From: Elusimicrobiota bacterium
GTDB lineage: Bacteria; Elusimicrobiota; Elusimicrobia; UBA1565; UBA9628
Direction of reading: 5' to 3'
DNA length: 64,000 nt
Assembly (NCBI GenBank): GCA_026388095.1
Contig: JAPLKL010000050.1
Location: 1 to 64,000 of the forward strand
Part shown: in pieces, positions 3,504 through 42,613 of the stretch
Numbering within the stretch: the stretch's first letter is position 1
Layout: each line of letters begins with the position of its first letter
Program-made: the position numbers and the translations under genes
The notes under the pieces: model-generated
Seen by the model: only the letters and a program-made list of their open reading frames with translations
What the model was told of the DNA's origin: nothing
The model's database searches: none

Positions 3504-3957
3504 GGGAACTTTTTCGGGGGTCATCTCGTAAGATAGTATGGATTCCCAAGGGACGGTGCGTCGCATGGCGACATTGCTCAAAGAGCTGCGGCTGGACCGC
3601 GGAATCTCCCAGCGGCAGCTTGCCGATCATGCGGGCGTCAACGCTTCGGTCGTGCATTGGGCCGAGCGGGGCGAAGACGCCAAGCTCTCGACCTGGGGCA
3701 AGCTCTTTGAAGGGCTGGGCTATCGCCTCCGGATCGACGCTACGGAGCTTGCCGAGGAAGTCGGCGAGCTTCTTGCCGAGGAGCGCGACCGCAGGCGGGA
3801 AAGGCGCTCGCAAGGTCTTTGCGCGGGCAAGCGTCGTTTCTATTGACCGCTTGACGAGGGTGTAAGGCCGGCTGCCTACAAATTTTCGGCGCACCCCCCC
3901 CATGCCTGCCATCCGAGTTCATCACTAAATATACGAATGACCCGCCGAAAAGTTCCC
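3504..3957. repeat. Imperfect inverted repeat B flanking the XRE gene
   Basis: Sequence 3504-3530, beginning GGGAACTTTTTCGG, recurs inverted at 3932-3957 with a few mismatches and indels. It is interleaved with repeat A (order A, B, gene, A', B'). Each copy is followed by an AT-rich -10-like stretch and an ATG, so B may be a duplicated promoter or operator pointing inward from both sides. Confidence 0.5.
3538..3846 (+). CDS. XRE-family helix-turn-helix regulator (102 aa)
   Basis: Residues from about 10 to 65 form a Cro/C1-type HTH: LLKELRLDRGISQRQLADHAG, then VNASVVHWAERG, then a third helix region. The C-terminal third is charged and probably helical (EEVGELLAEERDRRRERR). The start could be ATG 3538 or ATG 3565; neither has a clear Shine-Dalgarno sequence, and 3538 sits close behind an AAGATAGT stretch. 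The gene lies inside two interleaved inverted-repeat pairs, suggesting it arrived as a small mobile or rearranged cassette. No toxin partner is visible beside it. Confidence 0.75.
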   Translation: MDSQGTVRRMATLLKELRLDRGISQRQLADHAGVNASVVHWAERGEDAKLSTWGKLFEGLGYRLRIDATELAEEVGELLAEERDRRRERRSQGLCAGKRRFY

Positions 3958-4000
3958 GGATAGGCCATTTGTCTGAGAAGAAATGGGCCCTAAGACTCGT

Positions 4001-4027
4001 TTGCGCCCCTTTGCGCGCAAGTATAAT
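4001..4027 (+). promoter_or_regulatory. Promoter with perfect TATAAT 7 nt before the start codon
   Basis: A perfect TATAAT (4022-4027) is preceded by TTGCGC (4001-4006, 15-bp spacing) and followed after 7 nt by the ATG at 4035. A start site at the normal distance from the -10 would put +1 at or next to the A of the ATG, so the transcript would be leaderless. Confidence 0.6.
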
Positions 4028-4034
4028 ACCGTCC

Positions 4035-4979
4035 ATGGTTTGGCGCTGCGCGCTCGCGGCTCTGGCCGCCCTATTGCCCGCCTCGTCCTCGGCCCAGGTC
4101 CGAGCCGTAGCCAAGGTCGCGGCGCCCTGGCGCGGACCCGTTGGCCCCGCGCTCGGCGCGCCGCACTTCACCAACTCGCTGGTCCCTCAGCTGCAGTCCA
4201 TGGTCCCCGCCCCGTCCTTGACCGCTCCCATGCCCAAGGTCGGCCTGCAGGCCGCGCCCATAGTCCAGACCATGGAAGCCCCCGGCCCGGCGCCGGTAGC
4301 GGCCGAGGATCAAAAATTCCAGGACTCCATGGCCGCGGCCATGACCATGCAGAGCCAGGTCCTCGGCTCCATATCCCGCGCCACAGGCTTCGACCCCCTC
4401 GTCCTATCGCTGGGCATGTCCATGCTGCGCGAAGGCCTCTCCGCCAAGGACTGGCTCGACATCGGCGCCGGCCTCCAGGACCGCGATTCCGACTGGGACG
4501 AGATGGACAAGGTCCTCGCCCAGCAGATGCGCTCCCCCCAGTTCTCGGAAGGATTCCGAAAGGGCCAGAAGATCTCCCCCGACGACCTCACCATGCTGGC
4601 CTGGACCATCAAGGACCTGCCCCGGGAAGTCGAGATCGCGCGCAACAACCAGTACCTCGGCTGGCAGTACCGCTGGGAGGCGGGCGACGCTTCCGCTGCC
4701 GGGGCCTCGTTCAAGAACGCCTCGGTCAAACGCCTGTCCAAGGACTCCTGGATGATAGACCTCGGCGCCATCCCCGGGCCCCAAGGCGCGCAGAGGCTGC
4801 GCTTCTCTCTGGAAGGATTCTCAGGGCGCGCCGCGGACGCCAAGCCCCAGCTCGACGCCCTGCTCTCCTCGCCCTTGCTCACCCCCGAGCAGAGGGCCGA
4901 CCTCCTGCGGTTGGCTCTGCGCCTGGAAGCCGAGGGCCTGCTGCCCAAAGGCTACAGCCAGTCCCGGTCCGCGCGCTAG
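4035..4979 (+). CDS. Exported protein of unknown function with Ala/Pro-rich N-terminal stretch (314 aa)
   Basis: ATG 4035 gives a clean signal peptide (VWRCALAALAALLPASSSA), while a longer in-frame ATG at 3969 would bury it. After cleavage comes a Pro/Ala/Leu-rich segment to about residue 80, then a helical region with QDSMAAAMTMQSQVLGSI and a region rich in Asp/Trp (DWLDIGAGLQDRDSDWDEMD). I do not recognise the domain. The stop codon overlaps the stop of the convergent POT transporter gene. The spaced-out N-terminus resembles those of the exported peptidases elsewhere in the window. A perfect TATAAT just upstream suggests strong, possibly leaderless, expression. Confidence 0.72.
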   Translation: MVWRCALAALAALLPASSSAQVRAVAKVAAPWRGPVGPALGAPHFTNSLVPQLQSMVPAPSLTAPMPKVGLQAAPIVQTMEAPGPAPVAAEDQKFQDSMAAAMTMQSQVLGSISRATGFDPLVLSLGMSMLREGLSAKDWLDIGAGLQDRDSDWDEMDKVLAQQMRSPQFSEGFRKGQKISPDDLTMLAWTIKDLPREVEIARNNQYLGWQYRWEAGDASAAGASFKNASVKRLSKDSWMIDLGAIPGPQGAQRLRFSLEGFSGRAADAKPQLDALLSSPLLTPEQRADLLRLALRLEAEGLLPKGYSQSRSAR

Positions 4980-6427
4980 GATTCCGACTCGGTGATCTCC
5001 TCCAGGGTCTTCTCGGCGCTCGTCGGGCCGAGCCTGCCGCGCCCGGCTTTCCGGCCGTCCAGGCGGTCGGTGACGGCGCGGAACGCCATCAATAGGATGA
5101 AGCCCGCCACCCCCACGGCCGTGAAGACGTACCAGATGTAGTGGGCGTGGGCGTAGTAGCCGGCGCGCTCCAGCTCGCTCAGGCCCGCCGGAAGCTTCGC
5201 GGGGTCCGGGCACCACTTATCCAGAAGCATGCCCGAGAGGATGAAGCCGAACAGCCAGCCGAAGGCGGAATTGAGGTGCGCGTAGCCCATGTACAGGCCG
5301 GTCTCTCCCGGAGGCGCCTGCTTGGAGGCGTACTCCAGGTAGCGGGGCGATAGGAAGCATTCGGCCAAGCCCTGGAAAAAGATGCCGATCATCATCATGA
5401 GGATGATGGTGTTGACCGTCGTGAATCCCAGGGACACCTCCTTGGCCCCTATCAAAGGCGCCAAGGAGACGGTGAAGGCGGAGAGCGGGATGATGAGGAA
5501 GGAGACCGCTATCGAGCTGATGGGCCGCCAGCGGCGCACCAGCTGGGTGATGGGGATGACGAAGAGGATGACCACGAAGGGGTTCACGTTGGCCACCCAG
5601 CCGGGCTTGGAGGAAAGCCCCACCATGCGGAACAGGTACTTGGGCATGGTGGCGTAGAGCTGGCCCTGGATCGCCCAGAAGAAGCCCGTGATGACGATGA
5701 GGCAGGCGAAGCGCCAGTTGGAGAGCGCCCGGCCCAGGCCCGCGGCCAGTTCCCGGAAGCTCTTGGCCGGGGTCTTGGCCGCGCCCTCCGGCTCGCGGTA
5801 GGCCAGCAGAGCGAAAAGCAGGGCCACGAAGGCCATGGAGGCGGAGTAGAAGTTGACGAACTGCAGCTCCCAGCCCGGGCCGCTCGGGTTGCCCAGCAGC
5901 CCCTTGAGGAAGCCCAAGAGGCCGGAAGAGTCCGATGCGGCGAAGGCCTGGCGGATGGGGTCCACGAAGCTCTTGCCCGCGAAGGCGCCGATGTTGACCG
6001 CCCAGTAGAACAGGGAGAAGGCCCGGGCCCGGTTCGTCTCGTCGGAGCACTTGGCCGTGGTCCCGGAGACCACCGGCTTGACGATGCCCGCCCCGCAGAC
6101 GATGATGGCCAGGGCCAGGATGGCGGAGGACTTGGTCGGGAAAGCGCCCAGCACCGAGTAGCCGACGCAGAGCAGGAAGAAGGCCGCGCAGAGGGACTTC
6201 TTGAAGCCGATGCGGTCGGCCAGCGTCCCCATGAATGTGGGCATGAGGTAGAGGACGAAGGAGAAGACGCCGGTGACCACGCCGGTGGCGCGGTCCGAAA
6301 AGCCGATGCGCGTGGTCAGATAGACGGACAGGAAGATGAAGCAGCCGTAGTAGGCGGCGCGCTCGAAGAGCTCGATGAGGTTGGCGAACCAGAAGGTGGA
6401 CGAGAAACGCCAGGTGGTCTTTTCCAT
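4976..6427 (-). CDS. POT/PTR2-family proton-coupled peptide transporter (MFS)
   Basis: A 483-residue polytopic protein with 12 or more hydrophobic segments. The first helix region carries the POT-family signature LIELFERAAYYG (the ExxER(F)xYY motif that couples protons to peptide transport), followed by MFS loops such as MGTLADRIGFKK. These transporters import di- and tripeptides or related solutes across the inner membrane. I use ATG 6427, not an upstream in-frame codon, because it lies 2 nt after the stop of the GreA-like gene, implying co-transcription. Its stop overlaps that of the convergent exported-protein gene. Substrate within the family is not predictable. Confidence 0.85.
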   Translation of the reverse strand: MEKTTWRFSSTFWFANLIELFERAAYYGCFIFLSVYLTTRIGFSDRATGVVTGVFSFVLYLMPTFMGTLADRIGFKKSLCAAFFLLCVGYSVLGAFPTKSSAILALAIIVCGAGIVKPVVSGTTAKCSDETNRARAFSLFYWAVNIGAFAGKSFVDPIRQAFAASDSSGLLGFLKGLLGNPSGPGWELQFVNFYSASMAFVALLFALLAYREPEGAAKTPAKSFRELAAGLGRALSNWRFACLIVITGFFWAIQGQLYATMPKYLFRMVGLSSKPGWVANVNPFVVILFVIPITQLVRRWRPISSIAVSFLIIPLSAFTVSLAPLIGAKEVSLGFTTVNTIILMMMIGIFFQGLAECFLSPRYLEYASKQAPPGETGLYMGYAHLNSAFGWLFGFILSGMLLDKWCPDPAKLPAGLSELERAGYYAHAHYIWYVFTAVGVAGFILLMAFRAVTDRLDGRKAGRGRLGPTSAEKTLEEITESES

Positions 6428-31147: not shown

Positions 31148-33469
31148 TCAGGACACGAGACTGAGCACCCAGCTGGTGAAGCGCCGGGCGAGAGTGACGA
31201 CCGTTCCCGGGTTCTGGGGCAGCGTGATGCCGTGGATATTGGCCACGGCGCGGATATCGGCCTCATGAGGCATGTTGCCGTTGGCGTCCATGTCGGAGAG
31301 CAGCACCTGGGCCATGGCGGCCGGGATGTTGGAGGCCTTGGCGAACATGGTCGGGAGGATCAGCGCCTCGGCCAGAGCCGCTCCGGCCGCGTCTCCCATC
31401 TTGGCCATGAAGGCCTTGCGCAGCTTCCAGGCGAAGCCCTGCCAGGCCTGACCCTGGTCGTGGACCTCATCGTTGTCGCTGTACTGGTAGGTGTTGTCGC
31501 CGTGGCGGATGTAGTCGACGGGCTTGCCGTCCGGTCCCGGCCGCGGCTGCTTGAGGAAGTGCTCGCCGATGATCGGGTTGTTCAGGAGGAACATGGAGAC
31601 GATGTCGCCCCAGCCCTCGGAAAGACCGCCGTTGACGATGCCGCCGGTCATGTCGTCCCAGTAGTGGCCGTACTCGTGGTCGGCGACGGTGTCGTAGGCC
31701 GAGTTCACGCAGTTCTCGCTCGACTTGAAGAAATTCAAGCTCGGGCGGCCCGGCGTGTAATAGGCGTTGCATTCATCATCGACGTTGGTGCGCACGACGA
31801 TGGGCTTGCTATCCATCTTGTCGTTGGTGACCTTGTGCGTCTTGAGGAAGTCGTAGGCCAGGTTAACTTTCTGGAAGGCGCTGATCTGGGCCAACGCGTT
31901 CTCGTCGTTCAAGGTCGAGTTTGGGTTGAAGACGACCTTCAGGCCGGTGTCGCCGGGCTTGACCGTGACGTTGACGGACATGGTCTTGCCGGAGCTGTCC
32001 TGCAGGTCCACGTAGGGGCCGGACAGCTTCGCGGTCAAGGTCAGGCCCTCCGGCCCGACCTGGAGCGGCGAGTCGGTCTTGAAGCCGCCGTCCTTGTCGG
32101 TCACGTAGGTCTTTCCGCCGATCTGGACCTTCAGATTGCTCAAGGCGATCTCCTTGAGCTCAGCGGTGGGCAGGATCGGGCCATGGTCCACGGCCTTGCC
32201 GGTGACCGTGCCGGCCACTCCCTGCGCGTCCGCGCCCGCGCGCGGGTCCCAGGCGAAGGCCTCGCCCGAGACCACGTCAACGGCCAGCATGATCGGCCCT
32301 GGGCCGTTCTCGATGAGGTAGATATTGGCCGCGTGCCAGGCGCCCTTGACGTAGACGATCTTCTTCTCCAGGAAGGTGGCCTCCAGGCCGTACATCTGGG
32401 TGTAGACGCCCAAGCGCTCCAGGGCCTTGTCCTTCAACTGGTCGTCCGGGAAGCGCGGGGTGGTGTCCACGGAAGTCTTGGGGTAGAGCTTGGCCATGGC
32501 AGCCATGACCACGGGCCGGTTCTGGATCACCTTCATGGTGAAGCTCAGGCCGGTGCCGTGCATCACGATGCCGCCCTGCTGCTGCTGGAAGTAGGCGTAG
32601 ATGGTGTCGGCTTGATGGCCGACTCCCGCGATGCGGCGCACATGGATGGTGGCCAGCTGCGAGCTGGAGATCCCGTACTTGACCGGATCGGCGTCCACCA
32701 TGGCGCGCAGGGCGCGCTCCACGTCCGCCTCATTGGTCGGGTCGGCCTTCAGGATGGTGGGGCCGGAGCTGAAGATGTCCGCGCCGGTGGAGAGCACGCC
32801 GGGCAGGTCGAAGTTCTCGATGGAGACGCCCTTGCCCTTGCTGGTGTCCGGCGCCGAGGGGGCTTCGTCGAGGACCATGCCCTGCGGCAGGTTGGTCTTC
32901 TGCGGCAGGATGCTCGCGACCGCGCCGGGCGCGGCGGGCTTGGAATTGTCGAAGACCCGTCCGAGGTTGAGCTTGGCGGCGATGGCCGAGGCCAGGCGTC
33001 CGATGAGGCTCTTACGCTGGACGGGGGCCGCGACGGGGTCGGCGGAAGCCTCGGCGGAAAGGGCAGCCAACTGGGCCTGCGGGGCCTGGGCCGGAGCCGC
33101 TAAGACCGGACCGGCGGCCACGACGGAAGCGCCGGGGCCCTCGACCACGGCCGCGACGGGGGCCGCGGGGGCGGCCGCCTCGGGAGCGGCGAAGGTCATG
33201 GCGGCCTGCGCGCCGGGAGCCGCGACGATCGGGGTCTGCGGCAAGGCCAAAGCCCCGCTGAGGCTGAGACGGGAGGCCGGGGTCAGGAGGGAACCGTTGC
33301 CGAGATTCTGGGAAGCGGCGTTGACGGGAAGGCCGGTGATCCCTCCAGGCACGGCGCTCTGGGTGACCTGAGTCTGCACCGCCACGGCCGAGAAGACCGG
33401 CAGGGGGACGGAGGTCAGGGTCAGGACCAGAGAGATGAGGACGGCGGGTAGCTTGCTGATGTTCTTCAT
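31148..33469 (-). CDS. Exported gluzincin metallopeptidase (M4/M36-like, 773 aa)
   Basis: Signal peptide (ISKLPAVLISLVLTLTSVPL) followed by a long Ser/Leu/Ala/Pro-rich stretch with NLGNGSLLTPASRLSLSGAL, then an FTP/PepSY-like propeptide region (residues about 270-420). The catalytic HEYGH lies near residue 597 with the downstream glutamate in GGLSEGWGD about 20 residues later, the gluzincin arrangement of thermolysin and fungalysin. It is probably autoprocessed after export and acts extracellularly. TAGAAT (33479-33484, minus strand) is 9 nt upstream of the ATG. The N-terminal low-complexity region is shared in style with the C11 peptidase. Confidence 0.84.
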   Translation of the reverse strand: MKNISKLPAVLISLVLTLTSVPLPVFSAVAVQTQVTQSAVPGGITGLPVNAASQNLGNGSLLTPASRLSLSGALALPQTPIVAAPGAQAAMTFAAPEAAAPAAPVAAVVEGPGASVVAAGPVLAAPAQAPQAQLAALSAEASADPVAAPVQRKSLIGRLASAIAAKLNLGRVFDNSKPAAPGAVASILPQKTNLPQGMVLDEAPSAPDTSKGKGVSIENFDLPGVLSTGADIFSSGPTILKADPTNEADVERALRAMVDADPVKYGISSSQLATIHVRRIAGVGHQADTIYAYFQQQQGGIVMHGTGLSFTMKVIQNRPVVMAAMAKLYPKTSVDTTPRFPDDQLKDKALERLGVYTQMYGLEATFLEKKIVYVKGAWHAANIYLIENGPGPIMLAVDVVSGEAFAWDPRAGADAQGVAGTVTGKAVDHGPILPTAELKEIALSNLKVQIGGKTYVTDKDGGFKTDSPLQVGPEGLTLTAKLSGPYVDLQDSSGKTMSVNVTVKPGDTGLKVVFNPNSTLNDENALAQISAFQKVNLAYDFLKTHKVTNDKMDSKPIVVRTNVDDECNAYYTPGRPSLNFFKSSENCVNSAYDTVADHEYGHYWDDMTGGIVNGGLSEGWGDIVSMFLLNNPIIGEHFLKQPRPGPDGKPVDYIRHGDNTYQYSDNDEVHDQGQAWQGFAWKLRKAFMAKMGDAAGAALAEALILPTMFAKASNIPAAMAQVLLSDMDANGNMPHEADIRAVANIHGITLPQNPGTVVTLARRFTSWVLSLVS

Positions 33470-33590: not shown

Positions 33591-34874
33591 ATGCCCATTT
33601 TGGCCGTCGGCCAGCCCATTCCCCCTCTTCGCCAAGCCCTGGAGGCCGTCCCCGTCGAAGAGAAGGGCCAGCCGCTGTTCCTGCTCCAGGACCTGGAGGG
33701 CATCGCGGCGCAGGCGGTGGCGCTCTCGCCCGCGGGCCTGGCCCTGGCCGCCTGCTTCGACGGCAAGCGCTCGGCCGCCGAAGTGGCCGCGGTCTTCGCC
33801 AAGAACACCCGGCATCTGCTCAAGACCGAGGAGGTCCTCGGGCTCGCCCAGGACCTGGAGAAGAGCCTGCTTCTGGAGACGCCGCAGACCCAGGCTCTGC
33901 GCCGCAAGGTCCTCCAGGAGTTCCGCGACTCGCCGGTGCGCAAGGCCAGCTCGGCGGGGCGGACTTATCCGGACGAGGCGCTCGCTTTGTCCAAGATTCT
34001 GGGCGGCTTCTTCAAGGACCCCAAGGGTCCGGGGAAAGAGCCCGCGGCCGAGCCGGCCGAGCCGGCGCCGCTGGGCTTGATCGCGCCGCACATCGACTTC
34101 GAGCGCGGCGGCCCGGCCTACGCCTGGTCCTACCAAGCGCTCTCCGAGACCCGGCCTCCCGACGCGGTCGTGGCCCTGGGAGTGGCGCACATGTCTCCCA
34201 ATTCTCCCTGGGTGATGACGCCCAAAGCCTTCGCGACCCCCTACGGAGACGTCGCCCTGCACCAGGGGCTCTATGATGAGATCCGCTCGGCCTTGTGGTA
34301 CGACCCGCGCGACGACGAGTGGGTCCACCGCAACGAGCACTCGCTGGAGCTCCAGGCCGTGTGGCTGCGCTATCTCTGGCGGGAGAAGACCCCGCCCTGG
34401 GTGCCCATCCTGGTCTCCTCCTTCGAGCGCTTCGCGGCCGAGCAGCCTCCCTCCCAGGTCGAGACGGTGGAAGGCGCCTTGAGGAAGATGGGCGCCGCCC
34501 TGCGCCGCCGCGCCCTCAAGGGCGAGCGAATCATGGTCCTGGCCGGAGTGGACCTCTCCCATGTGGGACCGCGTTTCGGAGACCAGGAGGACGTTACACC
34601 TGAGGCGAAGAAGCTGGTCGAAAAGGATGACCGCGCCAGTCTGGAGCACGCCCTTCGCCTGAAGGCCGACGACTTCTATCTCTCGGTGGTCAAAGACGGC
34701 AACAAGCGCAAAGTCTGCGGCCTCTCCGCGCTCTACACGGCGCTGCGCCTGCTCCAGGCCCTGGCCGGCGACGCGCCCGGAGCTGGGAAGCTGCTGGCCT
34801 ACGGCCAGGCTGACGACCCGGCCGGAGGCTTCGTCTCCTTCGCCAGCGCCATTTTCCCGGCCGGCGGAGCGTGA
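33591..34874 (+). CDS. amrB: AmmeMemoRadiSam system protein B (MEMO1-like, 427 aa)
   Basis: Residues about 150-427 form the Memo fold: LGLIAPHIDFERGG, ALGVAHMS, RNEHSLELQAVWL and VLAGVDLSHVGPRFGD match the conserved family blocks, including the His residues of the proposed metal site. The N-terminal 140 residues form an additional helical module (LEGIAAQAVALSPAGLALA) reminiscent of PqqD-type winged-helix units. The AmmeMemoRadiSam trio (AMMECR1, Memo, radical SAM) is widespread but its function is poorly defined; the other two members are not in the window. TAGAAT (33579-33584) lies 6 nt before the ATG. Its stop is one base before the convergent immunity gene. Confidence 0.86.
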   Translation: MPILAVGQPIPPLRQALEAVPVEEKGQPLFLLQDLEGIAAQAVALSPAGLALAACFDGKRSAAEVAAVFAKNTRHLLKTEEVLGLAQDLEKSLLLETPQTQALRRKVLQEFRDSPVRKASSAGRTYPDEALALSKILGGFFKDPKGPGKEPAAEPAEPAPLGLIAPHIDFERGGPAYAWSYQALSETRPPDAVVALGVAHMSPNSPWVMTPKAFATPYGDVALHQGLYDEIRSALWYDPRDDEWVHRNEHSLELQAVWLRYLWREKTPPWVPILVSSFERFAAEQPPSQVETVEGALRKMGAALRRRALKGERIMVLAGVDLSHVGPRFGDQEDVTPEAKKLVEKDDRASLEHALRLKADDFYLSVVKDGNKRKVCGLSALYTALRLLQALAGDAPGAGKLLAYGQADDPAGGFVSFASAIFPAGGA

Positions 34875-34875
34875 T

Positions 34876-35301
34876 TCAGAGGGACGGCAGGCTTTCCTCT
34901 ATATAGGGGACATCCACGAGCCCGCGCAGCGCCGGGCTCTTCCACCAGCCGCGGTCGGTCTCCAGGATGACCTGGCCGCCCCGCCGCATCAAGATCGGGA
35001 GCTCCCAATTGAAAAGCACGACCATGTCGCCCTGCGCCACCTTCAACAAAGCCATGAGCACCCGGATGAGATTGAAATTGCCGGCGTAGCCGTCGTCGGC
35101 GTTGTAGACCGACAGGTCCAGGCGCACCACCAGGTCGGCCTGCGAGATGAAGCCGTAGGCCTCGCGGATGGCATGGACGCGAGGCGGCTGCGGGCGGCCG
35201 GGATGGAGCGTCAATCCGCGCACCTCCCCGATCTTGGCGGCGGCGAGCAGGCCCTCGGCGGGACGCGGGTCGGCGAAATGCAGCTCGTACTCTATCGACA
35301 T
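34876..35301 (-). CDS. Putative immunity protein for the adjacent tRNase toxin (141 aa)
   Basis: A small soluble protein beginning SIEYELHFADPRPAEGLLA with a later LLKVAQGDMVVLFNWELPIL and RRGGQVILETDRGWW, a pattern I associate with SitI3-type immunity proteins. Its ATG immediately follows the toxin stop (TAG then ATG), the standard toxin-immunity order. It should stay in the cytoplasm and block the nuclease domain of the product of 35302-37011. The family match is from memory and moderate; the position makes the role likely. Confidence 0.68.
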   Translation of the reverse strand: MSIEYELHFADPRPAEGLLAAAKIGEVRGLTLHPGRPQPPRVHAIREAYGFISQADLVVRLDLSVYNADDGYAGNFNLIRVLMALLKVAQGDMVVLFNWELPILMRRGGQVILETDRGWWKSPALRGLVDVPYIEESLPSL

Positions 35302-37011
35302 CTATTTGGCCGCGACCGGCAAAGGGACGACTTTCCCGGCCTTGACCAGCGGAGTCACAGTCCCCGTCCGCACCACCAGGATGTCGCCCAGATTTGGGAT
35401 GGGGTGCTGCAGAGCCTGCGCCTGCAAGGCGCCGAGCTCCACGGAGGAGCCGTCGAGGTTGAGCACGAAGCTGTGCGCCTGGTTCCGGGCGGCCTTGCCT
35501 TCCAGAGTGGTCCATATGTTGGCGGCTTTCCCGGTGAAGGGCGAGTAGCAGTCGTGCCCGACGCCGTCGATGAGATAATCCGCCCCGGCGCTGAGGCCGT
35601 TCTGGTGCACCCGATAGCCGTTCTGGGCCAGGAGCTGGGCCGCATCGTTCTGCCTCTGCAGGGCCAGCTTGTTGGAGGGGTTCTCCGCCGGGTTGATGGA
35701 AGCCGGCGTCCCGGTGAGCTCGCCCTGCCCCGGCACCGGCCCGAAGGCCCGCTCCAGCGGCCCCTTGACGGAGGCGGGCAGGCTGGCGTCCAAGGCCGCG
35801 GCGCCCCGGCCCACTCCGAGCCTGCTCATCTGGGCCGAGAGCGCCGAGGTCATGGAGTCGATAGCCGCCCGGCCGGGCTTGGTCTTGCCGACGCCATAGC
35901 CGATGGCGCTCATGAGGGCCAAGACCAGGACCGTGCCGCCCACCTGGCCCAGCCGCAGGAGGGATTGCGACTTCTGCAGGGTCCCGACCCCGGCCTGCAA
36001 CAACGCCCGGCTGGCATCCCAGCCTTCCTTGAACAAGGGTCCCAAGGTCGCGGCCAGCATGCCCAAGGAGGCGAGGCTCACGGCGACCTTGGCGACCAGT
36101 CCGAAGCCGGAGAGGGCCGACATCACCAGTCCCAGCACGAGGAACATCAGGTTCGTCGCGATTCCTTGGATCGTGCCGAACTGGGCCTTGAAGGCCTCCA
36201 CGACCCCGGCTATGAGCGGCGCCAAGGTGGGATGCTCCCGGCAAAGCCCCGCGATCTGCGGGTGCGCGCCGAGCGCCTGCCGGCACGGCGCCGCCAAGCG
36301 GTCCTTCTCAGCATCCTCTGCAGGCTGCGGAGCCGGAGATTCGCCGAAGGCAGGGACATCCTGCAGCTTCAAGCCCTTCATCGTCCGGCTGGTCCTGGGC
36401 GAGGCGGCGCCGCTCCCGCCTGTCGAAGAGACCGCGCCCGCGTTCAGGCGGCCCGCGGCCGTATCCAGGTCCCAGAACCTGCGCCCCTGGGAGCCGTCCA
36501 CGGCCGCGTTCCAGCGCTGCGGGTCAACGACGGCCTGGGCCTTCTTCAACTCGGCCGGAGGCCGCACCGCCTGCGTGGGGACAGCGCCGCCGACCGTCGT
36601 CCCGGGGAACATCCTGCCGAGGAGCGCGGCCACCTCCTCCAGCCGCGGCCGGAAGATGGCGCCGGCCTGTGCCGGGACCTTCGCACGGCCGGCCCTGCAC
36701 TCCGGAGTGAGCCCGGTCCAGAAAGGCGCCTCCGCCTGCAGGGCCTCGCCCGCGGCCTTCTGGAGTTCCAGCAGGTCCTTCTCGCCAGGCTTGGGCGAGG
36801 CCAGCAGTTCTGATATGGATTCGAGCGCGGCGCCCGCCGCGGCATGGTCTTTCTGGGCATAGCCCCCGGCGCGCAGATCTTCGACGGCGGGGGATAGCCG
36901 GTTCCAGACGGCGCGCAGATCCGCCCGCGTGGAGGCAGGGTCCGAAGCGCGACCAGGAGCGCTGAGGAGGAGCAGGCAGAGCGCGTACGCCAAGGAGGCT
37001 CGGGGTGGCAT
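35302..37011 (-). CDS. Exported polymorphic toxin with C-terminal CdiA-type tRNase domain (569 aa)
   Basis: Layout: signal peptide (residues 1-22), a helical periplasmic region to about 240 (with Cys pairs), hydrophobic helices at about 265-345 (NLMFLVLGLVMSALSGFGLV, GTVLVLALMSAIGYGVG), then a C-terminal domain from about 455. That domain reads RQNDAAQLLAQNGYRVHQN, DYLIDGVGHDCYSP, ANIWTTLEGKA and SFVLNLDGSSVELGALQAQ, the pattern of the CdiA_C_tRNase toxins of contact-dependent inhibition. There is no two-partner-secretion domain, LXG or WXG segment, or Rhs repeat, so it is not a standard CdiA. The membrane helices could be the translocation or pre-toxin part. The immunity gene follows with no gap. 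Confidence 0.82.
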   Translation of the reverse strand: MPPRASLAYALCLLLLSAPGRASDPASTRADLRAVWNRLSPAVEDLRAGGYAQKDHAAAGAALESISELLASPKPGEKDLLELQKAAGEALQAEAPFWTGLTPECRAGRAKVPAQAGAIFRPRLEEVAALLGRMFPGTTVGGAVPTQAVRPPAELKKAQAVVDPQRWNAAVDGSQGRRFWDLDTAAGRLNAGAVSSTGGSGAASPRTSRTMKGLKLQDVPAFGESPAPQPAEDAEKDRLAAPCRQALGAHPQIAGLCREHPTLAPLIAGVVEAFKAQFGTIQGIATNLMFLVLGLVMSALSGFGLVAKVAVSLASLGMLAATLGPLFKEGWDASRALLQAGVGTLQKSQSLLRLGQVGGTVLVLALMSAIGYGVGKTKPGRAAIDSMTSALSAQMSRLGVGRGAAALDASLPASVKGPLERAFGPVPGQGELTGTPASINPAENPSNKLALQRQNDAAQLLAQNGYRVHQNGLSAGADYLIDGVGHDCYSPFTGKAANIWTTLEGKAARNQAHSFVLNLDGSSVELGALQAQALQHPIPNLGDILVVRTGTVTPLVKAGKVVPLPVAAK

Positions 37012-37054
37012 GGGTTGCCTCGCCTATCCTATATACCCCCGGAATCCGCGGATT

Positions 37055-38086
37055 TCAAGAGGGCGGTCCGGGAACAGGCCGCTCAAGGCCCCCGTGCGAA
37101 TGATGACGCCTCACCCAAGGCGCGAGCAGATCGGCCAGCACGCGGTGGCCGGCGGCGTTCAAGTGCATGGCATCCAGGAAGAAGCGGCGGGGGTCCTGCC
37201 CCCGGCGCGTCTCCATCTCCGCCGCGAAATCCACCAGGCCGACGCCGGTCTGCGCCGCCACCTCGCGCACGGCCCCCACATATTTCTCATGATCCGCCAA
37301 CTCTCCCAGAGAGTGGCTCGCGAACCAGCCTTGGCCGGCCTGAGCGAGCCGCGGCTCGGCCGGCGCAGTGATCAGCACGACCTGGGCGCCGGCGTCCCGG
37401 GCATCGCCGATGATGCCGCGCAGGTTATCCTTGAACTGGGACAGCGGCACTTGCGCCGCCCAGCGCATCCTTTTGAAGACCGGGCTCTCCGCATCCCACA
37501 GGCTGGCTTGGAACCTCAGCAGGAGGCTCGCCAAACGCCAATGGACCGCCCAGCGGCGGATGCCAGCGAACGTCTTCTCGCTGGCGGCGGCGCGCCAATG
37601 GTCGTTCCACCCGTAGTAGACCGTGACCAGCTGCGGCCGGAACTCCAGCAGACGGGATGTCCGGAGCCAGCGCCGGCCGGAAAAGGAATTGTGTCCCGGC
37701 ACGCCGGCATTCATGGTCTCCAGGCCGCGCGCCGACAGCAAAGCCGGATAGGTCTCCGATTCAGCGAGCCTCACGCCGAACGTGCAGGAATCCCCCAGGC
37801 TCAGGACCAGGGGCCTCCTGGGCTCGGCTCCCCGCGTCCCGTACGCGCTGACGCGCGCCGGAGCTCCGAAGACCTCCGAAGGGTATAAGCCCGGCTTGGG
37901 TCTATAGCGGCACTGCAGATCGTCCAGCGCCCAGCGCGAGCAGTAGCGCCAATGCGGCTGGACTCCCAGCGCGGCAAGACCGAGTTCGGCCAACAGGAAT
38001 CCCGCGATCAGGCCGGGCAACGCCCATACGGCCCAGCCGCTGAAACGGCCCCGTCGCGACCCTCCCGCCTGGCCTGTCACGAGCAT
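37055..38086 (-). CDS. Membrane-anchored SGNH/GDSL-type hydrolase (343 aa)
   Basis: A single N-terminal helix (AVWALPGLIAGFLLAELGLA) and then an SGNH domain: LSLGDSCTFGVRL (nucleophile Ser), NAGVPGHNSFSG (Gly block), YYGWNDHW (Asn block) and DAMHLNAAGH (Asp and His). It resembles O-acyltransferase or esterase partners of envelope polysaccharide systems. It has low sequence similarity to the SGNH protein at 24195-25214 beyond the catalytic blocks, so it is not a recent duplicate. It ends 43 bp before the toxin gene start on the same strand. Confidence 0.82.
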   Translation of the reverse strand: MLVTGQAGGSRRGRFSGWAVWALPGLIAGFLLAELGLAALGVQPHWRYCSRWALDDLQCRYRPKPGLYPSEVFGAPARVSAYGTRGAEPRRPLVLSLGDSCTFGVRLAESETYPALLSARGLETMNAGVPGHNSFSGRRWLRTSRLLEFRPQLVTVYYGWNDHWRAAASEKTFAGIRRWAVHWRLASLLLRFQASLWDAESPVFKRMRWAAQVPLSQFKDNLRGIIGDARDAGAQVVLITAPAEPRLAQAGQGWFASHSLGELADHEKYVGAVREVAAQTGVGLVDFAAEMETRRGQDPRRFFLDAMHLNAAGHRVLADLLAPWVRRHHSHGGLERPVPGPPS

Positions 38087-38131: not shown

Positions 38132-39694
38132 TCAGTTCACCTGCAGTCCGAAGAACTCTCCCCCTTCCTTCAGCAGCCGCTGGAGGTGCTCCGGTCCCTG
38201 GAAGCTCTCGCCGTAGAGCTTGGCGATGGGCTCGGTGCCCGAGAGCCGGGCCAACAGCCAGGAGTCCTGCAGGTAGATCTTGACCCCGTCGGTATCGCGC
38301 ACGCCGGTCACCTTCTGGCCGGCCAGCTCCTTCAAGGAAGCGCAGGAAGCCGCGTTCATGGACTTGATCTTCTGGCGCTGAGCCTCGGAGATGGCCACGT
38401 CCACGCGGCGGTAGGCAGGGTCGCCGTAGCGGCTGGTCAGGTCCCGGTAGAGCTCCAGGAGGTCCTTGCCCGTGCGCGCCATGACCTCGGCCAGCAGGAG
38501 CACGGCGAGGATGCCGTCCTTCTCCGCGGTCCAGCGGTAGATGGAGAGGCCCGCGCTCTCCTCGCCGGCCAGGATGTAGCGGTCCTGCCGGATGCCCTCC
38601 ACGTACCACTTGAAGCCCACGTTGACCTCGTCGGCCTTGCGGCCCTTGGCCTGCGCGATGCGGTCCAAGAGATGCGTGGTCCCTATGGTCCGGCCCACGG
38701 TGAGGCTGGAGGGCCAGGCGGGCCGGTTGTCGAGGAGGTAGGCCGTGAGGACGCAAAGGGCTTGGTTCGGTGTGAGCAGTCCCGAAGTCTTGGTCGCGAC
38801 GCCGAAGCGGTCCGCGTCCGGGTCCGAGGCGCCGACGAAGTCGTACTTGCCGGCCCGGGCCAGGTCCAAGAGCGGCTTCATGGGATAGACCGAGGAAGGG
38901 TCCATGCGGATCTGGCCGTCGTGGTCGCGCGGGATGAAGCCGAAGGTGGGGTCCACGGTCTTGTCGACCACGCGCAGGTTCTTCAAGCCCAGGTCCCGGC
39001 GCAGCGCCTCATAATAAGGAATGGAGGTCCCGCCGAGGGGGTGGATGCCGATGCGCAGGCCGGAGCTCTTGATGACATCCAGGTCCACGACCTCGGCCAG
39101 CCTCTTGAGGTAAGGGCCGACGAGGTCCGGGACTTCGAGGAGGCCCTGGGCCTTGGCCTTGGCCAAGGACAGGCGGCGGATGGCCTTGGGGTCGTCGAGG
39201 CATCCGTTGGCGTACTTTTCGATGACCGAAGTGAACTCCGCTCCAGCCGGGCCGCCGCTGGCGGGATTGTACTTGAGGCCCATGTCCTGCGGCGGGTTGT
39301 GCGAGGCGGTCCCGTTGAGGGAAGCCGCGGCGCGGCCCGCGATGATCTCGAGCGAAAAGACGGGCGTGGGCAGGGGGATGTCCGCCAGGCGCACCGGGAA
39401 GCCGTTGCCGGCGAGGACCTCGGCGCAGATCTTGGCCGTCTCGGCGCTCATCAGGCGGGTGTCGCCGCCGAGGAGGATGGGCCCCTTGATGCCCCGCTCC
39501 GTGTGGAGCCGGGCCACGGCCTGGGCGATGGCTTCGGCGTGGCGGCGGGAAAAGCCTCCGCCCAGCCGGCCGCGATGGCCGGAGGTCCCGAATTTGACCC
39601 GCTCGAGAGGGACGCTGGGCGAGTCGAACTCCCGGGCGAAGTGGTGGACGTTGATGACTTCCGGGCTCAAGCGGCCGGCTTCGGGGTGGGGCAT
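38132..39694 (-). CDS. pgm: Phosphoglucomutase, alpha-D-glucose-specific (520 aa)
   Basis: The phosphoserine loop is NGTASHNPPQDMGLKYNPAS, with Ser131 followed by HNP; many relatives have Ser or Pro where this one has Ala before the Ser. The metal-binding loop is GASDPDADRFG and the N-terminal FGTSGHRG is intact. It interconverts glucose-1-phosphate and glucose-6-phosphate for glycogen and envelope sugar synthesis. AAGGAGGAACC precedes ATG 39694, which makes this start secure and the overlap with the glycosyltransferase-Lnt gene 28 bp. Confidence 0.88.
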   Translation of the reverse strand: MPHPEAGRLSPEVINVHHFAREFDSPSVPLERVKFGTSGHRGRLGGGFSRRHAEAIAQAVARLHTERGIKGPILLGGDTRLMSAETAKICAEVLAGNGFPVRLADIPLPTPVFSLEIIAGRAAASLNGTASHNPPQDMGLKYNPASGGPAGAEFTSVIEKYANGCLDDPKAIRRLSLAKAKAQGLLEVPDLVGPYLKRLAEVVDLDVIKSSGLRIGIHPLGGTSIPYYEALRRDLGLKNLRVVDKTVDPTFGFIPRDHDGQIRMDPSSVYPMKPLLDLARAGKYDFVGASDPDADRFGVATKTSGLLTPNQALCVLTAYLLDNRPAWPSSLTVGRTIGTTHLLDRIAQAKGRKADEVNVGFKWYVEGIRQDRYILAGEESAGLSIYRWTAEKDGILAVLLLAEVMARTGKDLLELYRDLTSRYGDPAYRRVDVAISEAQRQKIKSMNAASCASLKELAGQKVTGVRDTDGVKIYLQDSWLLARLSGTEPIAKLYGESFQGPEHLQRLLKEGGEFFGLQVN

Positions 39695-42516
39695 GGTTCC
39701 TCCTTGGGACGTCCCTGCGCCCGGTATTCTACTACAAGGAGCGGGAGGGCGGCGCCCAGCAGCAGCAAGACGGCCAGGAGATAGAGCCCTCGCCCCAAGG
39801 CGATGTACGGAGTCCTCTCCTCCAGCAAGGCCACCGTCGCCACGATGACGCCTTCCTGGCGCGGGGCGATGCTCTGGAGGATGCGGCCCGCGGGATCCAC
39901 CACCGCGCTCACGCCGCTGTCGGTGACGCGCAGCAGATAGCGTCCGTTCTCCACGGCGCGCATGGCGGCCAGGAGCAGATGCTGGCCGGGCACCATGGTG
40001 TCGTCAGCCCAGGCATCGCTGGCCCGGTCCACGAAGAGGTCGGCGCCCAACCGCACGAAACGCCTGGCGTCCTCGGCCATGAAGTCCTCATAGCAGATGA
40101 GCACGCCGAGCCGGGCCCGGCCCGGCAGCTCGAGCAGCTTCTGCCGCCGGCCGCGAGCCAGGGCTCTGGTGTTGGGGCTTATCCGGCGCAGGACCGGCAG
40201 GAACCTTCCGCAGGGCATATAGTCCGCGAACGGGGTCAGGGTCCTTTTCTCCACGGCGCCCAACGGCCGCTGGGAGGCCCCGTTGAGCAGGCAGATGGTA
40301 TGCTCGCCGCCCGGATCGCTGCCGACCCCGCAGGAGAGCAGGGGGATGCGGAAGGGCATACGCGCCCGCAGGGCGTCGGCCAGGGGCGAGCCTTCCAGGC
40401 GCGGCTCGGATCCGTCCTGCGGCCCGTACTCCACCGGCCCAGGATAGATGTTCCCCGGCCAGATGAGCAGGTCCAGTCCGCCGGAGCCCGCGGCCGGGCG
40501 GCTGAGTCGGGTGTAGGCGGGCAGGTTCTGCGCGGCGATCTCGGCCAGGGGCAGGGGGTAGAGGTTGTCGTGCTCATAAGAGAGCGGGCCTTGGACCATG
40601 CCCACGCGCAGGGCGCGGCCTTGCGCGATCCGGACGGCCGTCTGCGCGTCGATCTGGCGCATGCGGCGCCGCCCCCAGGCTTCGTTGGCCGCGAGCAGCG
40701 CGGCCGCGCCTGCGGCCAAAGCCAGGCGCCGCCGGAACAAGGCCGGGGCCCGGCCCCAAGACTCGAGACAGAGGAAGACCGCCGCGTTGAAAGCCGCGAT
40801 GAGCCAAGCCAGCCCGGCCATGCCGAGCACCGACACGATCTGCACGGAGGGCAGATGGAAGAACTGGGTGTTGGCCAACTGCGCGGGGAAGAGCATGGGG
40901 ACGAGGCCCTCGGCCGCCACCACGGCTGGGATGAAGGCCGCGGCTGTGGCCGCCGCCGGGTCGATGGCGCGGCGCCGCTGCCAGGCTTGCCCCAGCCAGC
41001 GGGCCGCCCCGCAGGCCAGGGCGAAGATGAGCCCGTGATAGGCGCACATCGCGGCGAACCAGAACGCCGGCTCCGGCATGGGTATGTTGAGCCAGCGCTG
41101 CGTGACCCCCAGCAACCAGGGCACGCCGGCGGCGAACCAGGCGCCGCCGAACAGCCAGCCCCAGAGGAAGCTCCGGCCCGGGGTCTCATCCCGGATGGCC
41201 CACAGCAAAGGGACAAAAACGAACCAGGATAGCGCCCCCCACGGTCCCGGCCAACAGCCCGCGCCTAGCGCGCAGCCGGCCAGCACCACGAGGCCCGCGC
41301 GTCCCAGCCGCCGGACGCGGGAGGCGCCGCAGGCCTGCGCGTCCGTGACCACCTCGACCTCTCGAGGGCCGTGGATGCGGTAGTGGACGCCTCCCCAGTG
41401 GATGTCGCTGCTGCAGGCCGAGCGGAGGTAGGTCAGGACGTAAAGAGCCAGGACCAAAGGTGAGTAGAGCGCGGCCAGCAGCGGGAACCGCCGGTAGGCG
41501 GGATTTATCCCGGTGAAGCGCTCGGGCAGGAACCTGCGGAAGGTCCGGAACACGAAGTAGAGGTTGAGGGCGTCCGCGAGCAGGGCGTAGGCCGCCAGCG
41601 GCCAGGCCCGCTGCCTGACGGCCCAGGTCAGGATCCAGAGCTTGACCAGGAGCTGGACGGCGCCCAGGCCCCAGAAGCGCAGGTCGTAGACGCGGAAATA
41701 GAGCACCCATCTGCTGAGGTTGTCGTAGAGCTGGCGGAAATCGAACGATTCCCGGCATACCGTCATGGCGCGGGTGACGAACCGGATCTGCCGTCCCCAG
41801 CCGCGGGCCTTCGCGGCGAGGGCCAGGTCGTTGGTGATGGTCCCCTCCCAGATCCCGCGCACCCCCAACTCCTCGAAATCCTTCCGGCGCATGGCCAAGG
41901 ACGCCCCGTCCACGCCGTCCATGAGGATGAAGTACGGTATCCCGTAGCCCATCCAGGCCATGCGCAGCAGGTTCCACAGCCCCTTGCGCTCCGGCACGTA
42001 AAGGAAGGTGCTGGTGGCCAGCACGACCGCGGGGTCAGCCAGGGGGGCGACCATCTCGCGCGCCCAACTCGTAGTGACCTGCTGGTCCGTGACCGCGAAC
42101 AACAGGACCTCGGCCTGGGGCCTCGCCCGGTCCAGGGCGTAGAACACGTCCGTGATCCACCCGCTCGAGCGGGTGGGCCGCGCGTTGGAGGCCAGGAGGA
42201 TGGCCGAGGCGCCGCTGCGCTGCGCCAGGAGCGACTTGAGGCGGACGTAGGCCGGGTCGGATTCTGACGGGGTGACGAAGATGAATTCCAGCGCGCCCGG
42301 ATAGTCCTGATCCAGGAGGGAACGGATGTCGCTCTCGAAACGCTCCGGGGCCCCCTTGCAGGGGAGCAGGACCGCCAGCGACGGGTGGTGCCGGGCGACC
42401 GGGGAGGCGAACTCGCGGCGCATCTTGCGGAAGAACATCAAAGTGGAGGCGAACTGCGCCGCGGCCATCGCCGTGGCCGCGCAGAACAGATCGTAGGCTA
42501 TGAAGCTCACGTGCAC
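39667..42516 (-). CDS. Glycosyltransferase (GT2/GT21-like) fused to an apolipoprotein N-acyltransferase-like domain (949 aa)
   Basis: N-terminal half: a membrane helix then a ceramide-glucosyltransferase/HpnI-like GT (LAVLLPCKGAPERFESDIRS, AVTDQQV, TITNDLALAAK, NLSRW) with C-terminal helices. C-terminal half, from about residue 430: Lnt-like membrane helices and nitrilase domain. The Lys (AVEKRTLTPFADYMP) and Cys (GVLICYEDF) of the Lnt triad are present, but the Glu of the WPE motif is Gly (LLIWPGNIYP). Lnt N-acylates lipoproteins in the periplasm. I prefer the GTG at 42516 (TATTGT six bases upstream, hairpin and T-run just before) to the ATG-like start at 42585. The order is opposite to the Lnt-GT fusion of mycobacteria. 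Confidence 0.82.
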   Translation of the reverse strand: MHVSFIAYDLFCAATAMAAAQFASTLMFFRKMRREFASPVARHHPSLAVLLPCKGAPERFESDIRSLLDQDYPGALEFIFVTPSESDPAYVRLKSLLAQRSGASAILLASNARPTRSSGWITDVFYALDRARPQAEVLLFAVTDQQVTTSWAREMVAPLADPAVVLATSTFLYVPERKGLWNLLRMAWMGYGIPYFILMDGVDGASLAMRRKDFEELGVRGIWEGTITNDLALAAKARGWGRQIRFVTRAMTVCRESFDFRQLYDNLSRWVLYFRVYDLRFWGLGAVQLLVKLWILTWAVRQRAWPLAAYALLADALNLYFVFRTFRRFLPERFTGINPAYRRFPLLAALYSPLVLALYVLTYLRSACSSDIHWGGVHYRIHGPREVEVVTDAQACGASRVRRLGRAGLVVLAGCALGAGCWPGPWGALSWFVFVPLLWAIRDETPGRSFLWGWLFGGAWFAAGVPWLLGVTQRWLNIPMPEPAFWFAAMCAYHGLIFALACGAARWLGQAWQRRRAIDPAAATAAAFIPAVVAAEGLVPMLFPAQLANTQFFHLPSVQIVSVLGMAGLAWLIAAFNAAVFLCLESWGRAPALFRRRLALAAGAAALLAANEAWGRRRMRQIDAQTAVRIAQGRALRVGMVQGPLSYEHDNLYPLPLAEIAAQNLPAYTRLSRPAAGSGGLDLLIWPGNIYPGPVEYGPQDGSEPRLEGSPLADALRARMPFRIPLLSCGVGSDPGGEHTICLLNGASQRPLGAVEKRTLTPFADYMPCGRFLPVLRRISPNTRALARGRRQKLLELPGRARLGVLICYEDFMAEDARRFVRLGADLFVDRASDAWADDTMVPGQHLLLAAMRAVENGRYLLRVTDSGVSAVVDPAGRILQSIAPRQEGVIVATVALLEERTPYIALGRGLYLLAVLLLLGAALPLLVVEYRAQGRPKEEPCPTPKPAA

Positions 42517-42530
42517 GCAAAGACAATACC

Positions 42531-42556
42531 AAAAAATCCCCGGACGCGCCGGGATG
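42531..42556 (-). terminator. Hairpin plus T6 upstream of the glycosyltransferase-Lnt gene
   Basis: On the minus strand a 7-bp stem with one bulge (ATCCCGG...CCGGGGAT) is followed by TTTTTT. It lies within the sequence that an alternative start at 42585 would translate. It may be an attenuator or simply support the later GTG start. Confidence 0.4.
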
Positions 42557-42584
42557 CGGGGCAGCGCCATGTTGGGCAGCGCCA

Positions 42585-42613
42585 TTGACAGATGCCGGAA
42601 GGCCTGCCATAAT
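42585..42613 (+). promoter_or_regulatory. Sigma70-type promoter of the single-pass membrane protein
   Basis: TTGACA (42585-42590) and CATAAT (42608-42613) are separated by 17 bp and lie 16 bp before the ATG at 42630. CGAGGA between them and the ATG can act as a ribosome-binding site. Confidence 0.7.

Follow-up and report, generated by a model that had tools for sequence, protein, structure and literature searches.

Can a tRNase that carries only a signal peptide and its own membrane helices be delivered into neighboring cells? This question is raised by a toxin gene of an Elusimicrobiota bacterium, which lies in a contig stretch of 64,000 nucleotides (JAPLKL010000050.1, positions 1 to 64,000; hereafter the window), and by the immunity gene that follows it. 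We consider the two genes to be a polymorphic toxin-immunity pair with intercellular delivery at a probability of roughly 0.55; the transfer between cells and the entry into the cytoplasm are steps that we infer.

Toxin Gene and Accessory Site

33591..34874, + strand: Memo-like gene, bordering the accessory site on one side
34876..35301, - strand: immunity gene of the SitI3 family (NF040657), 141 aa; predicted cytoplasmic, without a signal peptide
35302..37011, - strand: toxin gene (569 aa), encoding a signal peptide, a bundle of helices, a disordered linker, a membrane module with three helices, and a PD-(D/E)XK tRNase
37055..38086, - strand: GDSL/SGNH hydrolase gene between PMM and the toxin
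38132..39694, - strand: phosphomannomutase (PMM) gene, the other border of the accessory site

The toxin ORF starts with ATG and is preceded by a Shine-Dalgarno-like AGGCGAGG at 37018-37025, six bases 5' of this codon; as judged from its sequence, it is a real gene. In comparison with the G038 orthologues, which served as the reference for both the toxin and SitI3, the membrane module, the nuclease, and the SitI3 gene are under purifying selection (dN/dS of approximately 0.19, 0.17, and 0.22, respectively), and the N-region is evolving faster (approximately 0.6).

The order Memo-SitI3-toxin-PMM was common to the window genome (G000) and G038. Memo and PMM abutted in G043 and were approximately 90 bases apart in G041, with neither toxin nor SitI3 at the site in both genomes, and another gene followed Memo in G040. 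The presence of the toxin and SitI3 in G000 and G038, together with their absence from the site in the close relatives G043 and G041, indicates an accessory cassette. The GDSL/SGNH hydrolase gene was found in the window only and is not an obligatory part, because it is missing at the G038 locus. Elsewhere in the window, a single ORF (39667-42585, - strand) had matches to glycosyltransferase family 21 and also to apolipoprotein N-acyltransferase, and the region 31148-33469 (- strand) encoded an exported, metalloprotease-like protein with HEYGH...GLSEGWGD and no Pfam match.

C-Terminal Nuclease

35341..35721, - strand: PD-(D/E)XK tRNase domain, aa 431-557 (Pfam, phmmer, and Foldseek)

The first-pass annotation had claimed a CdiA-type tRNase at the C-terminus, and the HMM comparison that it had called for bore this out, with a match to Pfam CdiA_C (PF18451) of 46.1 bits (E 5.7e-12; curated cut-off of 26.6 bits). 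A phmmer search against PDB returned a single entry, 4G6V, which is the CdiA-CT of B. pseudomallei 1026b (E 1.1e-18). The AF2 model aligned with this structure in Foldseek with a TMt of 0.90 and an rmsd of 2.0, pointing to a PD-(D/E)XK fold, and the structural match gave 39% identity across the domain. When the toxin, including module and nuclease, was compared with solved structures, the nuclease was the only fold match (Foldseek). The assignment of the C-terminus to the tRNase-type CdiA_C nucleases is well supported by family and predicted fold, and by analogy the window protein may cleave tRNA.

The active site of the 1026b toxin is formed by E187, D214, D223, and K242 (PMC9086364), for which the equivalents are Q454, D478, D487, and K506; three of the four residues are thus kept. 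Gln at the E187 position was common to the window toxin, G038, G023, and G022, and Glu was kept in the relatives from 1026b, an E. coli plasmid, a Nostoc plasmid, and G026. This substitution would fit a degraded remnant whose nuclease is inactive through loss of the catalytic glutamate. Such a remnant is very improbable, given that both Asp residues and the Lys are retained, that an acidic residue stands two positions after Q454 (RQND/RQNE), that the substitution is common to four proteins, one of which has another N-terminus, and that purifying selection acts on both the nuclease and SitI3.

No CdiA_C nuclease was found in searches of phages and viral contigs. The fold matches in BFVD were led by MuF/minor capsid proteins and probably reflect the nuclease domain.

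Immunity Gene

The immunity gene had been described as following the toxin without a gap, and this is the case: the toxin stop codon is at 35302-35304 and the immunity ATG at 35301. Its product matched NCBIfam SitI3 (NF040657) with 44.6 bits (E 1.9e-11; cut-off of 31 bits), so that its place in the SitI3 family is well supported at the sequence level. In M. xanthus, SitA3 has a PF18451 tRNase for which SitI3 provides immunity; the two form an experimentally tested pair, and expression of the SitA3-CTD in E. coli led to cleavage of tRNA-Ala (PMC5562445, PMC8546572). A SitI3-family gene directly after the toxin thus corresponds to the toxin/immunity pairing of Myxococcus SitA3/SitI3. The window immunity protein was not matched to CdiI-1026b.

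The nuclease and SitI3, in toxin-then-SitI3 order, recurred on a Nostoc plasmid and in the genomes G026 and G038; the carrier was the same in G038, whereas the proteins of G026 and the Nostoc plasmid had unrelated N-termini. On the Nostoc plasmid (NZ_CP091914.1; L097, 1064-3364), a CdiA_C toxin with a Sec-signal-like start is followed by an annotated SitI3, showing that the CdiA_C/SitI3 pairing exists in cyanobacteria too. A single-sequence tblastn search for SitI3 in plasmids gave no match, although this Nostoc pair carries an annotated SitI3. The G023 tRNase protein had no adjoining SitI3; a weak SitI3-like gene was located elsewhere, beside a cysE-like gene, and the same cysE-linked gene was found for G022, which has another CdiA_C protein. 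At L090 (784-4929, - strand), a 1381-aa protein contained an internal CdiA_C domain with further sequence after it and had no adjoining SitI3.

Since the toxin and immunity families include an experimentally tested pair, the question narrows to the carrier. Both families are already known, and the new part of the system is the carrier module.

Carrier Region

36946..37011, - strand: signal peptide without a lipobox, aa 1-22; cleavage site of SPase I type between GRA and S (sequence reading)
36610..36939, - strand: four-helix bundle, aa 25-134; AF2 pLDDT of approximately 82-95, dN/dS of approximately 0.6
36337..36594, - strand: low-confidence, probably disordered linker, aa 140-225; pLDDT mostly below 50 (AF2)
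35812..36324, - strand: Elusimicrobiota-specific membrane module, aa 230-400 (alignment, phylum search, and AF2)
36112..36171, - strand: membrane helix 1, aa 281-300 (hydrophobicity and AF2)
36031..36099, - strand: membrane helix 2, aa 305-327 (hydrophobicity and AF2)
35887..35943, - strand: membrane helix 3, aa 357-375 (hydrophobicity and AF2)

A plain Sec signal peptide, a helical N-region, and strong hydrophobic helices before the toxin domain had all been proposed at first pass, and each was recovered. Read by eye, the N-terminus (MPPRASLAYALCLLLLSAPGRA, followed by S) fits a plain signal peptide with a hydrophobic h-region at aa 5-16 and no lipobox cysteine; Sec export is predicted from this signal peptide, and the protein would be located in the envelope. 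The helical N-region corresponds to the four-helix bundle of the AF2 model, and hydrophobic segments were found at 288-306, 309-327, and 357-375, N-terminal to the toxin domain. The module (approximately 165 aa) consists of a Cys pair (C243/C257), QFGT (277-280), three hydrophobic helices, and a GK-rich end (GKTKPG), and AF2 confidence for this helical part was mostly high. The Cys pair was kept in 13 of the 14 aligned modules, as would be expected if the module segment is exported. Against solved structures, the module had no significant sequence match and no fold match.

The same architecture allows the main rival reading, namely, a membrane-anchored effector of the producing cell itself, in which the bundle would sense the periplasm and the helices would span the inner membrane, leaving the nuclease in the producer cytoplasm, with SitI3 acting as an antitoxin and release occurring under stress or phage attack. 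A signal peptide and three helices, if all of them span, predict a cytoplasmic C-terminus, a tRNase requires a cytoplasmic target, and the segment after helix 3 is net positive. However, the loop that leads into helix 3 is just as positive, and with positive charge on both sides of the helix, the orientation of the nuclease is left ambiguous. Moreover, the SitI3/CdiA_C pairs of known biology act between cells (PMC5562445), and PADLOC gave no match to the toxin or SitI3. An effector acting in its own cell is accordingly regarded as unlikely, and intercellular delivery is preferred.

Distribution of the Membrane Module

The module was detected in 14 of 341 Elusimicrobiota genomes by the phylum search, and a genome_contigs pattern scan, which used a five-row alignment and had limited sensitivity, returned Elusimicrobia loci only. 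Found only there, the module appears to be lineage-specific to Elusimicrobiota. A search for the same N-terminal region on other C-termini, as had been suggested for this protein, was positive for the membrane module, which was joined to tRNase, HExxH, Cys-protease-like, and PP2C-like C-termini and was also present in a 2965-aa multidomain protein. The tRNase type was represented by three proteins (window, G038, and G023), as was the HExxH type, two members of which were followed by a protein of 148-155 aa with four hydrophobic segments. Other C-termini were papain/C39-like (the Cys-protease-like type), PP2C-like, and one unassigned; some module proteins (L031, L048, and L049) had no effector domain. 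Library matches of the C-termini were limited to CdiA_C, ABC1, and HEAT, and the other domain names are motif readings; the HExxH C-terminus (AF2 pLDDT of 76) had no significant fold match and was called by motif alone. Among the C-termini of the module, only the tRNase is a clear toxin.

These C-termini also bear on the effector acting in its own cell. PP2C-like C-termini (by motif) in some members would suit cytoplasmic signaling, whereas papain- and HExxH-like C-termini need no cytoplasmic site. Overall, sequence and model comparison shows the nuclease family and fold, the immunity family, their linkage and conservation, and the occurrence of the module on different C-termini.

Several module loci had features of their own. 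The four-hydrophobic-segment proteins directly after the HExxH module proteins (L021, 5286-5732, + strand; L022, 2410-2877, - strand) are candidate membrane immunity proteins. The 2965-aa exported module protein (L051, 5694-14591, + strand) had ABC1-kinase and HEAT matches, with ART-like and C39-like stretches by eye, and the two genes 3' of it look like an AbiE-type pair. L030, which lies in a genome of its own (C78), encoded a module protein without an effector domain (3776-5047), and a second signal-peptide gene from approximately 5038 (+ strand), with a ParB-like C-terminus, overlapped the module gene by approximately 10 bases; this overlapping pair is possibly a split version of the toxin. 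At L029 (3498-5741; in a genome of its own, C17), a short tandem duplication at approximately 5239-5300 interrupts a module gene of the PP2C-like subfamily, and the frame beyond it reads as Arg-rich nonsense; this is probably a pseudogene or an assembly error.

Export and Delivery

The protein had been described as devoid of the usual delivery domains, and this was upheld: Pfam gave CdiA_C only, no TPS/haemagglutinin repeats were present in the toxin, and the genome (a 97.6% complete MAG of an uncultured organism) contained no match to T6SS VipB, the phage/eCIS sheath, VirB4 (T4SS), or ShlB (the CdiB-type outer membrane transporter). Among the genes beside the window toxin, and among those that follow the family members inspected, no secretion gene was recognized. 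Sec-only export of polymorphic toxins is already known (SitA, MafB, and Amoebophilus APD1/2); therefore, the absence of CDI/T6SS delivery domains is not new in itself. These searches covered four systems, and a substrate of another one (type II, Tad/type IV pilus-like, or type IX) could reach the periplasm by its signal peptide and be released by an outer-membrane machine. Although such a two-step route would agree with the Sec signal peptide and with a bundle that is folded in the periplasm, strong hydrophobic helices are unusual in a soluble secreted substrate, and with no secretion gene recognized nearby, this route seems improbable.

Comparison with known systems places the toxin between several of them. 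The toxin shares the PD-(D/E)XK fold and D214/D223/K242 with the CdiA-CT of B. pseudomallei 1026b but differs in the Gln at E187 and in lacking TPS/FHA domains, as well as in a genome without a CdiB match. Like SitA3 of Myxococcus xanthus, it combines a PF18451 tRNase C-terminus and a directly downstream SitI3-family gene with an N-terminal carrier of approximately 400 aa, a Sec-type signal, and no dedicated secretion apparatus beside the gene. SitA3, however, has a lipoprotein signal, whereas the window toxin has an SPase I-like site; the window carrier, in addition, has three hydrophobic helices and an Elusimicrobiota-only module. Delivery of a SitA-type toxin by outer membrane exchange would account for the identical toxin and immunity families, but it is the least probable route considered, as there is no lipobox, no SitB was recognized adjoining the toxin, and MYXO-CTERM matches in the genome were all sub-threshold. 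In MafB (Neisseria), Amoebophilus APD1/APD2, and the Microscilla effectors, a signal peptide precedes a constant region that is restricted to the lineage, and the C-termini are polymorphic (PMC3482391). The window toxin resembles them in its signal peptide, constant region, and varied C-termini, yet its constant region is membrane-helical and Elusimicrobiota-only, and neither a MafA-like partner nor a lipobox was recognized.

Under intercellular delivery, the toxin would be exported by Sec through its signal peptide, seated in the envelope by the three-helix module, and brought to neighboring cells by contact or vesicles. The bundle and the membrane module would then serve as an escort/entry domain that moves the nuclease into the recipient cytoplasm, where the PD-(D/E)XK nuclease would cut tRNA, and SitI3, cytoplasmic and unexported, would guard the producer and its kin. 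Evidence counted against the intercellular reading includes the ambiguous helix charges, G023 without an adjoining SitI3, Q454, the effector-less module proteins, and the single clear toxin type. A more specific proposal, put forward tentatively and held to be doubtful, is that the Sec-exported, membrane-embedded Cys-pair/QFGT/three-helix module is a new carrier/escort domain peculiar to Elusimicrobiota, which moves interchangeable effectors across the inner membranes of neighbors without a dedicated secretion machine.

Should the nuclease instead act in the cell that produces it, the protein would be an envelope-sensing, membrane-anchored nuclease, which is also of interest. If the carrier proposal is true, a phylum that is mostly uncultured would harbor polymorphic-toxin carriers of a new kind, in which the passage of a nuclease across membranes without a secretion machine could be tested.
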